A stretch of DNA of 64,000 nt from Spirulina major PCC 6313 (GTDB lineage Bacteria; Cyanobacteriota; Cyanobacteriia; Cyanobacteriales; Spirulinaceae). The stretch is from NCBI RefSeq assembly GCF_001890765.1, contig NZ_KV878783.1, positions 4,306,771-4,370,770 of the forward strand, written 5' to 3'. Below are positions 1,001 through 5,839 of this stretch, one piece after another; the stretch's first letter is position 1; each line of letters opens with the position of its first letter. A program made the position numbers and the translations under genes. The notes below the pieces were generated by a model. That model saw only the letters and a program-made list of their open reading frames with translations, did not search any database and was not told the origin of the DNA.

Positions 1001-2503
1001 TCAGAAGTTTGCTTCCGTCGGGGCTTTGTTAGGGTCGCGGCTAATTTTCTTACCCTTGCCACCCGTCATCAGCGAAACCCCCACAAACGCCGCTAAACCC
1101 ACCAAGGGACTAATCAACGTCGGGAAACCATCAAAATCTGGGGTGAAGATCGGGTTTGGAATATAAAGCAGGGTGTTGTCGCTGCCGAACATCGTCGGCA
1201 TCAAGACAAAAAACGCCAAGCGGGTGATTGTGCCGAGGATGATGCAGGCTAACGCGCCGTATTCATTGGCTTTGGGCCAAAATAACCCCCCAGCCAAGGG
1301 AATTAATAACCCCGCAAACCCCAGGTCAAACGCCAGGAGGAGCAGAATCCCGGTTTGGGGCACGAGCACCGCGAAAATCACGCCCAAGGCGGTGATCACT
1401 ACCGCCATCATCCGCGTGATCGCCAGGAGGCGATCGCCCGCTGCATTGTGGTCATCGTGGCGAATCCCAATGATATTATGGGCAATCACCGACGACGTGC
1501 CCAGAATCGCCCCATCCGCCGTTGACAGCGAAGCCGACATAATCGCCGTAATCACCAACAGCCCCAGGGCCGGCGGCACAACCCCCGACAGCAGGTTAAA
1601 CAGCAACGGTTGATCCGCATTACGCGCCACATCAGCAGCCTCTAAAATAGTCGGAGCCGCCAGCGCCAACATCGAAAACGGCACACCGATCAACACCGTA
1701 CCCGCCGACCCAATTAAACAAGCCCTCTGGGCCGTTTCCGGACTATCGGCCGCAAAAACCCGCGCCATAAAATCAATCGCGACAATATCCCCCAAACCCA
1801 GAGCCAGCAGTGTTGCCCAGTTAATCGCAGCCCCAAAGCTGGGGTCTGTTAACTGTTCGAGGTCAAAGGGCCCCATGCCTTCGGGAACCGTGAAACCATA
1901 ATTAATCGCCACAAACCCGATCAATCCAACCGTCCCAATCAATGCAATGCCCACTTGAATCGCATCGGTATAGGCCACCGCAAACAGGCCACCACTGGCG
2001 GTGTAAATTAACACCACCAACGCGATGAGAATCACCCCCGCCACATAGCTGGTTCCCAGAAACGACTGAAATAAAAATCCCCCCGCCACTAAGTTTCCTG
2101 CTAAGAGAAAGGCAAAACTAAGCACCATAATGATCGAGGCGATCCATTCCGTGAGGCGGTTATATTTCACCCGATAAAAATCCGGCAAGGTAATTAACCC
2201 CATGCGGTTCATCGGCTTCGCAAAAAACAGCCCCGTTAAGAATAAACAGAGGGCTAATCCTAAGGGTAACGAAGCCCCCGCCCAAAAACCGAATTCTCCC
2301 GCGAGATCGGTGTTTCCTAAGGTGGCGTTAGAGTCTACAGATTGGGCCATTAAAGTTGCGGCGGCGAGGGGCAAAATCAACCCACGACCCGCGACTAAGT
2401 AGTTCACACTATCACCTTTGATCTGTTTCGCGGCCCAAAGTCCAATGGCTAAGGTCAGGACAAGAAATGCAATAATTCCCCAAAAGAAAATCTGATTTGG
2501 CAT
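1001..2503 (-). CDS. sodium:solute symporter (SSF family), candidate guanidine or urea transporter
   Basis: 500 residues with about 12-13 hydrophobic helices, the normal size for the SSF family (PutP, PanF, Dur3-type). It starts MPNQIFFWGIIAFLVL. The early helices carry the SSF-like pattern YLVAGRGL followed by AATLMAQSVDSNATLGN, and a central region reads TASGGLFAVAYTDAIQ, which resembles the family signature. It is the last gene of the leftward gdmH operon, 101 bp after the hypB-like gene and with no visible terminator between them. The known family role is Na+-coupled uptake of small solutes, including urea by Dur3-type members. That this one carries guanidine, or its product urea, is inferred only from operon position under a guanidine riboswitch. 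Synechocystis uses an ABC system in the equivalent place. Confidence 0.85.
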   Translation of the reverse strand: MPNQIFFWGIIAFLVLTLAIGLWAAKQIKGDSVNYLVAGRGLILPLAAATLMAQSVDSNATLGNTDLAGEFGFWAGASLPLGLALCLFLTGLFFAKPMNRMGLITLPDFYRVKYNRLTEWIASIIMVLSFAFLLAGNLVAGGFLFQSFLGTSYVAGVILIALVVLIYTASGGLFAVAYTDAIQVGIALIGTVGLIGFVAINYGFTVPEGMGPFDLEQLTDPSFGAAINWATLLALGLGDIVAIDFMARVFAADSPETAQRACLIGSAGTVLIGVPFSMLALAAPTILEAADVARNADQPLLFNLLSGVVPPALGLLVITAIMSASLSTADGAILGTSSVIAHNIIGIRHDDHNAAGDRLLAITRMMAVVITALGVIFAVLVPQTGILLLLAFDLGFAGLLIPLAGGLFWPKANEYGALACIILGTITRLAFFVLMPTMFGSDNTLLYIPNPIFTPDFDGFPTLISPLVGLAAFVGVSLMTGGKGKKISRDPNKAPTEANF

Positions 2504-2604: not shown

Positions 2605-3303
2605 TTAATGGGTAAGCAGTGGAGAAGACACCATGCCCTGTACTTGCGATCGCACCCAATCGAACCATAAATCGAGGCCCTCGCCTGTCTTCGCTGATAC
2701 CGGAATAATCGCAGCATTAGAATTCATCTGACGCACATTAGCCACGAGCATTTCCAGATCTAGATCCAGATAGGGTGCGAGATCCATTTTGGTCACCAAA
2801 AGACAATCCGCCTCCTGGAACATTAAGGGATATTTCAAGGGCTTATCTTCCCCTTCGGTCACACTTAGAAGTGCAACTTTAGCGTGTTCTCCCACTTCAA
2901 ACTCCGCCGGACAGACGAGATTCCCCACATTTTCCACAAAGACGAGATCAAAGGTTGTGGGATCATAGTCATGGGAAAGTTGATGCAGCCCCCCGGCGAC
3001 CATTTTGGAATCCAAATGACAGGCGCGACCGGTATTAATCGCAATCACCGGCACATCGTATTGACGGAGGCGATCGGCATCTAATTCCGTGGTCATATCC
3101 CCTTCAATTACCGCCATTTTTAACTCAGCATTCAGGGTCGCCAGGGTGCGTTCAAGGAGTTCCGTTTTACCTGCGCCAGGACTACTCATTAAATTCAGAC
3201 AATGAATTCCCCAGCGATCGAAATGGTCGCGATTGTGATCCGCTCCGGCTTGGTTGGCATGGAGCAAATTTAATTCCAGGGCAGCGTCGAAGGTTTGGTG
3301 CAT
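2605..3303 (-). CDS. hypB: HypB-like GTPase, nickel insertion accessory protein for guanidine hydrolase
   Basis: 232 residues, a SIMIBI-class P-loop GTPase. The Walker A motif is [12 protein letters not shown] at about residues 41-52, and [16 protein letters not shown] is the typical HypB switch region. [13 protein letters not shown] includes the Cys-Pro of the HypB metal site, and [15 protein letters not shown] is the guanine-specificity motif (TKxD). It lacks the His-rich N-terminal nickel-storage tail of some HypB proteins. It lies between the hypA-like gene and the symporter in the gdmH operon. No hydrogenase or other hyp genes are present, so its client is most likely the guanidine hydrolase, as reported for the equivalent Synechocystis genes (Sll1079, GhaB). 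The ATG at 3301-3303 gives a normal N-terminus. Confidence 0.9.
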
Positions 3304-3375: not shown

Positions 3376-3762
3376 TTAGCAGGACGTGGGGGATGCGATC
3401 GCATCTTCTTCGTGATATGAATATTCAATCCGATCAATTTTTAACTCACGCCCAGAGCGAATCTCCTCCATCGGAGCGTGACAGGTCGGACAGGCATATT
3501 GCAGCCCCATTTGAGGCGCATACTCTGCCTGACAGGAATGGCAAAACGCAATCAATGGCATTTCTTGAATCATCAAGCGCACCCCCTCCAAAAACGTGCC
3601 TTGGGTCTGAGCCGTAAAGGCAAACTCTAAACTGGCCGGTTCCACACAGGTGAACTGTCCCACGATTAAATGAATCGCTTCAATATTGGGCGTACCATGC
3701 TGATGTTCAAACCAATCCCGGACGGTCATAATCAATGCCTTAGTCATGTCTGTTTCGTGCAT
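3376..3762 (-). CDS. hypA: HypA-like nickel metallochaperone for guanidine hydrolase
   Basis: 128 residues from the ATG at 3760-3762. The frame stays open upstream, but this start gives the invariant MHE N-terminus of HypA, whose His2 is a nickel ligand, and has an AGAGG-type ribosome site. The C-terminal half carries the zinc-binding pairs CHSC (x about 14) CPTC, the structural zinc site of HypA. It follows the GST gene by 20 bp and precedes the hypB-like gene by 72 bp. In Synechocystis the homologues next to gdmH (sll1078, ghaA) activate the nickel-dependent guanidine hydrolase. Operon position supports the same job here, not hydrogenase maturation. A dual role elsewhere in the genome cannot be excluded. 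Confidence 0.9.
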   Translation of the reverse strand: MHETDMTKALIMTVRDWFEHQHGTPNIEAIHLIVGQFTCVEPASLEFAFTAQTQGTFLEGVRLMIQEMPLIAFCHSCQAEYAPQMGLQYACPTCHAPMEEIRSGRELKIDRIEYSYHEEDAIASPTSC

Positions 3763-3782: not shown

Positions 3783-4391
3783 TCACATTGAATCCGTAAT
3801 TAAACAATGATTAGGTTGAGTTTTGACCCGTGCAAACCATGCTTGAATTGCCGTAAAGGGTGACAAATCAAATCCCCCTTCATCCGCCACATGGGTATAG
3901 GCATAGAGCGCAATATCAGCAATGGAATAGGACTCATTGACAAAAAATGTATGGGTTTTTAAATGGTCTTCCATCACCTGGAGGGCGGCATACCCTAAGG
4001 GGCGTTTTTGGTCGAGTTGTTCCCGAAATTTTTCGCCTTGATTGAGGCTGTGGAGCCAATAACGGGAGGTGGCGATATGGGGTTCATGGCTGTATTGCTC
4101 AAAGAATAACCAGCGCATCACCTGAGCTTGATCCCAAGGATCATCGGGAAAAAAGGCGGTGTTTTGACTGAGATAATACAGGATGGCATTGGATTCGGCG
4201 AGGTATTGACCCGGCGACACTTCGAGGACGGGAATGCGCCCATTGGCATTAATCGCTAAAAAGTCAGGGGTGCGAGTTTCTCCGGCAATAATATTTTTTT
4301 CAATGTGCTCGAAGGGAATCTCTAATTGACGCAATAAGAGCCGCACTTTATAGCCATTCCCTGAGGGTAAAAAATCGTAAAGTCGATACAT
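3783..4391 (-). CDS. glutathione S-transferase family protein
   Basis: 202 residues, the usual GST length. An N-terminal thioredoxin-fold domain (about 1-80) has the candidate catalytic serine in DFLPSGNGYKVRLLL, the cis-proline stretch GRIPVLEV and the glutathione-binding ESNAILYYL motif. A C-terminal all-helical domain includes YSIADIALYAYTHVA. It lies between gdmH (69 bp gap) and the hypA-like gene (20 bp gap) on the same strand, so it is almost certainly co-transcribed under the guanidine riboswitch. GSTs are not a known part of guanidine degradation. Possible roles are detoxification of a co-imported electrophile or redox support of the nickel chaperones, but neither is shown by the sequence. 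Confidence 0.88.
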   Translation of the reverse strand: MYRLYDFLPSGNGYKVRLLLRQLEIPFEHIEKNIIAGETRTPDFLAINANGRIPVLEVSPGQYLAESNAILYYLSQNTAFFPDDPWDQAQVMRWLFFEQYSHEPHIATSRYWLHSLNQGEKFREQLDQKRPLGYAALQVMEDHLKTHTFFVNESYSIADIALYAYTHVADEGGFDLSPFTAIQAWFARVKTQPNHCLITDSM

Positions 4392-4460
4392 TTTGAGGAT
4401 GCTCCGGTATCACCATAAAACAGGTCAGGGCTGGCGCGATCACCAACCCTAACCGTGGGG

Positions 4461-5636
4461 TTAACGCCAGGGTTGATCCACCACTTGGGCTTCGGGGTGG
4501 ATGTAACTAGGGGTTGCTTTGCGGGGGAGTTGTTCGGAGACGACGAGATGGGCGAGGGTGTCGCAAATTACCCGTGTTGCCATTAAGGCGGTCATGTCGC
4601 TGACATCGTAGGGCGGTGAAACTTCGACAATTTCCATGCCGCATACGTTGGTTTCCCGAATAATTCGTTTCAGTAGATAGAGGGCTTCACGGGGTAATAA
4701 ACCGCCGGGTTCGGGCCAGCCGGTGCCGGGGACAAAGCCCGCATCAATGCAGTCAATATCGAAGCTAATCCAGACGCAATCGGTGCCGTCGGTGGCGCGG
4801 GCGATCGCAAAATCCGCCGCCGCATCTAACCCCATTTCGGTAATGTCCGTGACGGTGAGAATATTCGTTTCCCGTTCGCGGCACACCTTCACCCCTTGAC
4901 GCGGCACTTGCCAACCCCCAATCCCCAACTGCACGAGGTTTTTCGCGGGGGCATTGGCGATATTTGTGGCGTGGAACCACGGACAGGTGTGCATCCGTTC
5001 ATCGAGGTCGGTTTCTTGGGTATCCACATGGCGATCGAAGTGAATAATGCCTACTTTTTGATCGCCTAGATGCTGACAAATGCCGCGCACCGTGGGAAAT
5101 CCGATCGAATGATCGCCCCCTAAAATCATCGGAAATGCCCCGGAACTAAAGACATGGGCGACCCCTTTAGAAATCTGATCAAAGGACTTTTCATTATTCG
5201 CAGGAATCGTGAAAATATCCCCTACATCACAGAGGGTAATTTGTTCACGCAAATCCACACCAAATTCAAAGTTGTAGGGGGTGTAGAGGGCGGAAATGCG
5301 GCGAATGCCTTGGGGGCCGAAGCGTGTGCCGGGGCGGTAGGTGGTGCCGGAATCGTGGGGCACACCGATGATCGCCACGTCATAATTGCCCACTTGGCGC
5401 ACGTCTTCAAGATAGGGGGCCTTCATGAAGGTGTTAATCCCGGCATAGTGGGGCAGTTCACCCCGCGAGAAGGTGGGAATGGTGCGGTCTTGGATGCTGG
5501 CGGCGGCTTCTAGGCCGAATTCTAAGCCCTGATTCACTTCCTGTTGCCAGCCGGTGAGGGGGAGGTGTTGTTCCATCCCTAGGGCGCGTTGGGCTTCGCT
5601 TTGGCCGTTGGGGGGTTGAAAGGCTGAGTCTGTCAT
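4461..5636 (-). CDS. gdmH: Ni-dependent guanidine hydrolase (arginase/agmatinase superfamily)
   Basis: 391 residues of the ureohydrolase superfamily, close in length to the characterised Synechocystis GdmH (Sll1077), which hydrolyses guanidine to urea and ammonia. Metal ligands are visible: GGDHS (His176), FDRHVDTQ (Asp201, His203, Asp205) and SFDIDCID (Asp293, Asp295). Two departures from ordinary agmatinase motifs are Arg in place of Ala in FDxHxD, and GTGWPEPGG in place of GTGTPEPGG. An N-terminal extension of about 60 residues is also present. It is often annotated speB, but the guanidine-I riboswitch upstream and the HypA/HypB pair downstream point to guanidine, not agmatine. It is the first gene of the leftward operon. 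The start ATG is at 5634-5636. Confidence 0.9.
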   Translation of the reverse strand: MTDSAFQPPNGQSEAQRALGMEQHLPLTGWQQEVNQGLEFGLEAAASIQDRTIPTFSRGELPHYAGINTFMKAPYLEDVRQVGNYDVAIIGVPHDSGTTYRPGTRFGPQGIRRISALYTPYNFEFGVDLREQITLCDVGDIFTIPANNEKSFDQISKGVAHVFSSGAFPMILGGDHSIGFPTVRGICQHLGDQKVGIIHFDRHVDTQETDLDERMHTCPWFHATNIANAPAKNLVQLGIGGWQVPRQGVKVCRERETNILTVTDITEMGLDAAADFAIARATDGTDCVWISFDIDCIDAGFVPGTGWPEPGGLLPREALYLLKRIIRETNVCGMEIVEVSPPYDVSDMTALMATRVICDTLAHLVVSEQLPRKATPSYIHPEAQVVDQPWR

Positions 5637-5664: not shown

Positions 5665-5728
5665 CAAAATAATTAGCCCGGAAGAATTCACCATTCAAGG
5701 GGTCTGAATGATGTTGTTCTCCCGGGCT
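5665..5728 (-). terminator. riboswitch expression platform: competing terminator hairpin
   Basis: On the minus strand AGCCCGG (complement of 5722-5728), which lies in the 3' part of the aptamer, can pair with CCGGGCT (complement of 5675-5681). The latter is followed by AATTATTTTG (5665-5674), a T-rich tail. Pairing of this 7-bp stem would disrupt the aptamer P3 helix. This is the logic of an ON switch: ligand-bound aptamer keeps P3 and allows read-through into gdmH, and ligand-free RNA terminates. The pairing is seen in the sequence, and the regulatory direction is inferred from known guanidine-I switches. Confidence 0.7.
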
Positions 5729-5834
5729 TTTATCCCGCCGTGGGGTTATCGACATTTGTTAAGGGTGGATAACCTGTCTCTCTTGGTCCAGTCGTTTTAT
5801 TTGTTGAGGATAAAACCGGAACCCTAGAGACCTA
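5716..5834 (-). ncRNA. guanidine-I (ykkC) riboswitch aptamer
   Basis: Read on the minus strand, the leader of gdmH contains the conserved blocks of the guanidine-I aptamer in order. These are CTCTAGGGTTCCGG, a stem-loop of the form GTTTTAT...ATAAAAC, CTGGACCAAGAGA (canonical CUGGUCCGAGAGA with two changes), and CCACGGCGGGATAAAAG followed by CCCGGGAGA. An extra stem GGTTATC/GATAACC is inserted between the GAGAGA block and the CACGG block. The near-invariant 3' block makes the identification firm by eye. It lies about 80-200 nt upstream of the gdmH start and is followed by a terminator-like stem. It would sense free guanidine and control the whole gdmH-GST-hypA-hypB-symporter operon. Confidence 0.92.
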
Positions 5835-5839
5835 TTGAA

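Follow-up and report, generated by a model that had tools for sequence, protein, structure and literature searches.

The guanidine importers named in the literature consulted are ATP-binding cassette (ABC) systems and one permease of the APC superfamily (PMC12186494, PMC11410670). The gdmH operon of Synechocystis PCC 6803 (sll1077-sll1082) combines a Guanidine-I riboswitch, GdmH, HypA/HypB homologs and importer genes (PMC12186494, PMC8390497). The guanidinase locus of comammox Nitrospira is described with a riboswitch-controlled secondary (ATP-free) importer beside the enzyme; this APC permease, possibly proton-coupled, precedes the enzyme gene and no nickel chaperones are found nearby (PMC11410670). 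In this study, we analyze a 64,000-nucleotide stretch of the Spirulina major PCC 6313 genome (the window), in which a gene on the minus strand at 1001-2503 encodes a member of the sodium:solute symporter family (SSF, TC 2.A.21). The surrounding operon resembles that of Synechocystis in its riboswitch, GdmH and nickel chaperones, but the ATP-driven ABC importer of Synechocystis gives way to an SSF symporter encoded by one gene, and a GST-like gene is added. The window shares with Nitrospira a putative secondary importer beside the enzyme, of a family other than APC. We consider it highly probable that the gene encodes a Na+-coupled guanidinium importer, the uptake arm of an operon for guanidine-nitrogen assimilation, and the best reading is that it represents a third class of guanidine importers beside the published ABC and APC importers. 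The assignment is built on comparative genomics, from which we infer substrate, direction of import and Na+ coupling.

The coding sequence of the symporter is intact, running over 500 codons from an ATG at 2503 to a stop at 1001. Its 500-aa product belongs to the SSF family by its match to Pfam PF00474 (124.4 bits against a gathering cut-off of 22.8; E 7e-36). It matches nine NCBIfam SSF models, PutP, PanF and ActP among them, but reaches the curated cut-off of none (score/cut-off: PutP 112/515.5; PanF 98/328; MctC 40.5/670; ActP 31/750), and it is not assigned to any of the named equivalogs PutP, PanF, ActP or MctC. On the minus strand the order is Guanidine-I riboswitch (5717-5838), gdmH (4461-5636), GST-like gene, hypA, hypB and SSF symporter. 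The first-pass annotation had set the symporter at the end of a gdmH cluster, and the reading frame, the Pfam match, the riboswitch and the three accessory and enzyme genes gdmH, hypA and hypB all confirm that placement. The GST-like gene and a terminator-like hairpin behind gdmH add to what that annotation had listed. The upstream aptamer and the GdmH-type ureohydrolase with its nickel chaperone genes mark the cluster as a riboswitch-controlled gdmH operon. The 391-aa gdmH product, a homolog of Ni-dependent guanidine hydrolases, matches Pfam Arginase (E 5e-78). Among solved structures it is closest to 7esr/7oi1 (E 4e-244), which we take to be the Synechocystis guanidine hydrolase, and then to 9fek (E 3e-172), all named 'agmatinase 2'; the next kind, proclavaminate amidinohydrolase, follows at E 5e-49, and guanidinobutyrase/guanidinopropionase reach 156 bits against 813 bits for the best solved match, more than 600 bits apart. 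Judged from its sequence, the identity of this arginase-family enzyme as GdmH is secure. ABC importer genes (binding protein, permease, ATPase) are absent from the operon, and no guanidine-type ABC binding protein was matched in the S. major genome at E<=1e-20. Urease and UrtA are both encoded in this genome.

The linkage between this symporter and guanidine recurs far from S. major. With the window SSF protein as the only query, a collection covering 84,980 species by one genome apiece was searched, and guanidine genes were sought within 6 kb of the SSF gene in the best 80 of 186 relatives (30 cyanobacterial, 25 actinobacterial and 25 haloarchaeal). All 25 actinobacterial loci contain guanidine degradation genes within this distance. 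They are split into 12 with GdmH (59-71% identity) and 13 with a DUF1989 gene, and a carboxylase of the 1200-aa urea/guanidine type is also present in 12 of these 13. The DUF1989 genes that were scanned against NCBIfam match 'urea amidolyase associated protein' models; we assume that DUF1989 proteins act as carboxyguanidine deiminases in the guanidine carboxylase route. Among the 30 cyanobacterial loci, gdmH is found nearby in 16, a riboswitch in 14 and either of them in 18. The survey of SSF genes beside gdmH or guanidine riboswitches in other genomes, which had been put forward together with the first-pass annotation, thus reveals linkage in every actinobacterial locus and in most cyanobacterial ones. 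One locus counted as cyanobacterial (L060) is located on a contig labelled as a Chloroflexaceae metagenome-assembled genome; it carries a cyanobacterial-type guanidine operon, is nested in the cyanobacterial clade and is probably misbinned.

In 10 of the 55 bacterial (cyanobacterial plus actinobacterial) loci, a Guanidine-I riboswitch immediately precedes the SSF gene, namely in L042 (filamentous cyanobacterium ESFC-1), L048 and L052 in cyanobacteria and in L096, L101, L102, L104, L106, L110 and L112 in actinobacteria. L102 is included in this count, the predicted SSF start codon there being too far upstream. The same position is occupied in G170/L149 of the 386-genome sample described below. 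Actinobacterial loci with a Guanidine-I riboswitch number 10 of 25, all ten of them GdmH loci. Behind the aptamer, L042, L048 and L052 have a hairpin that ends in a T-rich tail, and a clear T-tail at this place was not seen in L096 and L101. Across cyanobacteria and actinobacteria the linkage takes five forms, with the SSF gene further down the operon, by itself behind a riboswitch of its own, in divergent orientation to gdmH, ahead of gdmH (L096), or beside the genes of the carboxylase route. A Rubrobacter plasmid carries in a row a riboswitch, an agmatinase-family (gdmH-like) gene, the SSF gene, a formamidase gene and urease genes, which reads as a complete guanidine-to-ammonia module. In L101, L102, L104 and L106, gdmH and the SSF gene are divergent (intergenic region at approximately 7.6-7.96 kb), with a Guanidine-III riboswitch on the gdmH strand and a Guanidine-I riboswitch on the SSF strand.

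In riboswitch regions of the cyanobacterial phylum, the symporter takes the place of the ABC importer. Within a sample of 386 genomes (thresholds E<=1e-60 for SSF and E<=1e-120 for gdmH), 121 have the Guanidine-I riboswitch, 58 have gdmH and only 7 have the SSF gene. A riboswitch is located within about 4.2 kb of the SSF gene in five of these seven, S. major included, at a chance expectation of roughly 0.2% per genome. Since the SSF gene is rare and yet so often has a riboswitch near it, the association is not a matter of chance. All seven SSF genomes also carry gdmH (hypergeometric-type test, 1e-6). To compare importers, 67 regions were fetched that cover the 68 riboswitch places in the window's order and class, the window being excluded and six regions ending at contig ends, and the genes considered lie on the strand of the riboswitch, no further than about 9 kb downstream of it. 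GdmH is accompanied by an ABC importer in 44 regions, by the SSF symporter in three and by no importer in five; an ABC importer occurs alone in six and the SSF symporter alone in one, and the genes of the carboxylase route are found alone in five and with an ABC importer in three. In total, 53 regions have an ABC importer, four the SSF symporter and ten neither, and none of the 67 has both. When the window is included, the SSF gene is present in 4 of 53 GdmH regions and an ABC importer in none of these four (hypergeometric 4e-4, a value that ignores relatedness). In three ABC-type control genomes the search for the ABC binding protein returned matches of 61% (G008) and 54% (G014), with G109 as the source of the query. 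The proposal of the first-pass annotation that an SSF protein acts as the transporter arm of a guanidine operon is thus upheld by the riboswitches directly upstream of SSF genes, by the adjoining of two biochemically distinct degradation routes and by the replacement of the ABC importer.

The AlphaFold2 model, computed from an alignment of the window protein with 55 of 77 full-length relatives, has a typical SSF fold (pLDDT 88.8, pTM 0.88), and breaks of TM1 at 56-57 and of TM6 at 242 place it among the LeuT-type folds. Carriers with this fold bind substrate and Na+ at the TM1 and TM6 helix breaks. In the fold comparison the model matches CHT1 (9bim) with a Z-score of 45.8, followed by SiaT (36.7), SGLT1 (33.9), NIS (33.6) and DUR3 (26-33). 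The human choline transporter CHT1 (SLC5A7), which carries a small monocation with Na+, is the closest solved relative both by sequence (E 3e-23) and by fold (24% identity in the fold match).

The SSF proteins related to the window protein form a clade that is sharply bounded in the 14 genomes searched, because orthologs are at least 49% identical to it and the next SSF proteins at most 29%. A quick IQ-TREE run, from which 17 redundant rows and rows under 480 aa were left out, had no bootstrap and very long outgroup branches; no conclusion is drawn from its root or from the branching order among actinobacteria, haloarchaea and cyanobacteria. Residues were counted on 84 distinct clade members (87 rows with three identical pairs). 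D57, N59, T61 and N64 are invariant in the 82 members covering them, and N137, D244, S327 and T328 in all 84; at position 239, 81 members have D and 3 have N. The consensus motifs are DSNATLGNTD in TM1 (second residue S, A or T) and GDIVAIDFM in TM6. The invariant S327/T328 corresponds to the TM8 Ser-Thr pair of the SSF Na+ site, where E. coli PutP and PanF also have S/T; S340/T341 of PutP are presumably its Na+ ligands. The pocket residues, in contrast, differ. At positions 57, 59, 61, 64, 137, 239 and 244, the residues of PutP are S, W, L, L, G, Y and H. Those of PanF are S, S, F, G and Q at 57 to 137, and the profile alignment gives it V at 239 and H at 244. CHT1 has Gly, Gly, Gly and Ala where the clade has D57, N59, D239 and D244. 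In six SSF paralogs (24-29% identity), N59 and D239 are absent throughout and D57 is absent in five; the sixth, L219, has an Asp in the column of position 57 that is possibly a shifted counterpart of the PutP Asp. D57, N59, D239 and D244 would have a role in the recognition of guanidinium.

Position 244 is Asp in the three paralogs beside agmatinase-like genes and His in the other three. The former (L216, L217, L218) constitute a separate actinobacterial SSF group (24-29% identity) with an adjoining agmatinase-like gene and the TM6 Asp at 244; they possibly carry larger guanidino compounds, and their residue suggests that D244 would read the guanidino group. An SSF carrier for a guanidino acid exists in Pseudomonas, where GpuP transports 3-guanidinopropionate and is encoded beside a ureohydrolase. 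The alternative that survives best, unlikely as it is, holds that the window protein imports another guanidino compound, such as methylguanidine, guanylurea, agmatine or guanidinobutyrate, which is subsequently converted to guanidine or hydrolyzed. The D244 shared with these paralogs is consistent with it, and so is the distant agmatinase-family gene adjoining the haloarchaeal orthologs. The enzymes linked to the bacterial members are, however, of the GdmH and DUF1989 types, and the bit scores of the window GdmH set it far from guanidinobutyrase and guanidinopropionase.

Urea is the second candidate substrate. The first-pass annotation had raised export or import of urea, the product of GdmH, as an alternative; on this reading the symporter would, as Dur3 does, bring in urea from outside or move the urea made by GdmH. 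The SSF family indeed includes the plant DUR3 urea carriers, which share the fold of the window protein, urea is what GdmH releases, and urease genes are close to the SSF gene on the Rubrobacter plasmid. Yet DUR3 is more distant than the monocation carrier CHT1, it is absent from the sequence-profile matches at E<=0.001, and its substrate is neutral whereas guanidinium is a cation. All seven SSF genomes of the phylum sample encode UrtA, which covers urea import, together with urease. In addition, the 13 actinobacterial members beside DUF1989, 12 of them also with the carboxylase, are associated with a route that proceeds without free urea according to PMC12186494, and the riboswitches placed directly 5' of ten SSF genes are of the ykkC kind, RNAs which bind guanidine and reject urea (PMC7266159). 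Guanidine is the only small molecule shared by the guanidine-I riboswitch, by GdmH and by the route through carboxyguanidine deiminase, and for this reason guanidine rather than urea is taken as the substrate. Urea transport is consequently disfavoured, and we regard it as decidedly unlikely.

Export of guanidine for detoxification, as performed by SMR exporters, is very unlikely. Riboswitch-controlled export has a parallel in four regions fetched from distant phyla (out of 60 such genomes), where the gene next to the riboswitch falls in a cluster whose representative matches Pfam SMR. The SSF gene, by contrast, sits in the place of the ABC importer beside catabolic genes, and a catabolic operon would gain nothing by expelling its own substrate. 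SSF carriers whose Na+ site is intact are known to operate in the inward direction. Finally, that the symporter is a bystander with an unrelated substrate, placed behind hypB by chance, is hardly credible despite the terminator-like hairpin upstream of it in the window and the cyanobacterial loci that lack guanidine genes nearby, given the recurrence of the linkage across two phyla in five arrangements and the absence of a guanidine riboswitch, carboxylase, DUF1989 gene or close GdmH from all seven control SSF loci (the six paralogs and the second SSF gene of the S. major genome, one locus ending at a contig end), three of which have an agmatinase-like gene.

Several observations weigh against the assignment of the window protein as a guanidinium importer. 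No guanidine gene was found within 6 kb of the SSF gene in 12 of the 30 cyanobacterial loci. In the whole genomes of these 12, gdmH is present elsewhere in ten; the genome of L066 has a riboswitch but no gdmH, and Hydrocoleum (L059) has neither. With L042, L047 and L048 added to the whole-genome search, gdmH was found in 13 of 15 genomes, L059 and L066 being the exceptions. Three genomes with gdmH near the SSF gene (L047, L061, L065) are devoid of any Guanidine-I match, as is locus L055, and in the stretches scanned no guanidine riboswitch was detected in the 13 actinobacterial DUF1989-type loci, nor in L099 and L103. The agmatinase-like genes in three of the seven control loci (32-36% identity to GdmH) weaken any argument from distant ureohydrolases, also that for the haloarchaea, and the presence of D244 in the three paralogs beside them means that this residue may mark guanidino groups in general. 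The exchange of importers is also not strict. G170 combines an ABC-type gdmH operon with an SSF gene that lies elsewhere behind its own riboswitch, and G070 carries a 50%-identical homolog of the ABC binding protein elsewhere in its genome, so that one genome can house both importers. In the window itself, a 14-bp hairpin behind gdmH might leave the distal genes partly uncoupled from the riboswitch.

An agmatinase-family gene approximately 35% identical to GdmH occurs within 2 kb of the SSF gene in 24 of the 25 haloarchaeal loci, a PhoU/AbrB-type gene cluster is present in 19, and D57, N59, D239 and D244 are common to all 25 archaeal SSF proteins. One of the agmatinase-family enzymes has its best solved match in 7esr (E 6e-59), followed by 9fek (4e-48) and guanidinopropionase (6e-46). 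Here too, there are points on the opposite side: a confirmed guanidine gene was found in none of the 25 loci, the neighbor being only a distant ureohydrolase, and the guanidine riboswitch is absent from the four archaeal loci scanned (L068, L073, L079, L194). Because the three control paralogs also adjoin distant agmatinase-like genes, the haloarchaeal guanidine link is only a lead. The wider proposal that the clade is a dedicated Na+/guanidinium symporter family of cyanobacteria, actinobacteria and haloarchaea, and that together with the agmatinase-family neighbor and the PhoU/AbrB-type regulator it marks guanidine assimilation in halophilic archaea, is tentative and in our judgment somewhat short of probable.

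For the proposed guanidinium importer of the window, the operon layout allows a mechanism to be proposed. The Guanidine-I aptamer (RF00442; cmscan 81.8 bits, gathering 63) at 5717-5838 of the minus strand is followed by a terminator-like hairpin with a U-rich tail at 5666-5728 (12+10 bp, -31.2 kcal/mol, then AATTATTTT), the putative expression platform. The final 12 nt of the aptamer match fall within the 5' arm of this 54-nt hairpin (5728-5675), a layout to be expected of a transcriptional ON switch. Guanidine would thus turn the window riboswitch on, as the overlap and the guanidine-I behavior published in PMC11410670 indicate. Intracellular guanidine would bind the aptamer and prevent the terminator hairpin at 5728-5666, which would switch on gdmH, the GST-like gene, hypA/hypB and the symporter. 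HypA and HypB would serve nickel loading, the symporter would bring guanidinium inward with Na+ and the membrane potential as the driving force, GdmH would split it into urea and ammonium, and the urease encoded elsewhere in the genome would complete the breakdown.

The genes of the operon share one strand, and each is separated from the next by 20-101 nt. Between gdmH and the GST-like gene, hairpin prediction yields the terminator-like 14-bp hairpin with TGTTTTATGG at 4423-4454 (minus strand), in a region with 13 terminator-like sites compared to 6.8 (sd 3.1) in shuffles. It is possibly an attenuator and might tune how much GdmH is made relative to the products of the distal genes. Read-through past 4454-4423, which would place the SSF gene on the gdmH transcript, is likely. 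The gap of 101 nt between hypB and the SSF gene (2503-2605) contains one weak promoter match at 2565-2538, the region as a whole giving 6 matches versus 6.2 expected.

The remaining genes, all on the minus strand, encode accessory functions. hypA (3376-3762, 128 aa; TIGR00100 E 2e-33) and hypB (2605-3303, 232 aa; TIGR00073 E 2e-90), both above cut-off, encode a HypA-type nickel chaperone and a HypB-type nickel-inserting GTPase. The GST-like gene (3783-4391, 202 aa; Pfam GST_N/GST_C) recurs in other guanidine operons, both of the SSF type (L043, L045, L053, L055, L092, L134) and of the ABC type (L147). In three operons gdmH is followed by a methyltransferase-like gene (L043, 5254-6021; L044, 2772; L055, 5050). 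A gene of the Rieske/ring-hydroxylating oxygenase type comes after ABC-type guanidine operons (L129, L142, L146, L156, L169 and others), and a Rieske gene occupies the same place in Synechococcus according to PMC10119275. The SSF carriers among L038-L066 include Moorena, Xenococcus, Prochloron, Hydrocoleum and Acaryochloris. These genera are known from marine or saline places, and a saline habitat would suit a Na+-driven carrier.

The fold and the SSF family are known; the assignment of guanidinium as the substrate is new within the searchable literature. There, with some core guanidine papers outside its scope, we found among the papers listed none that pairs an SSF protein with gdmH, guanidine carboxylase or a guanidine riboswitch, in keeping with the earlier statement that a guanidinium-specific Na+ symporter is not known to have been described. 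If our reading is true, a third, Na+-driven class of importers would explain guanidine uptake in some cyanobacteria, various actinobacteria and perhaps haloarchaea. Its sequence signature would let genes annotated only as 'sodium:solute symporter family protein' be given a substrate, and the symporter would offer a single-gene module for guanidine uptake.

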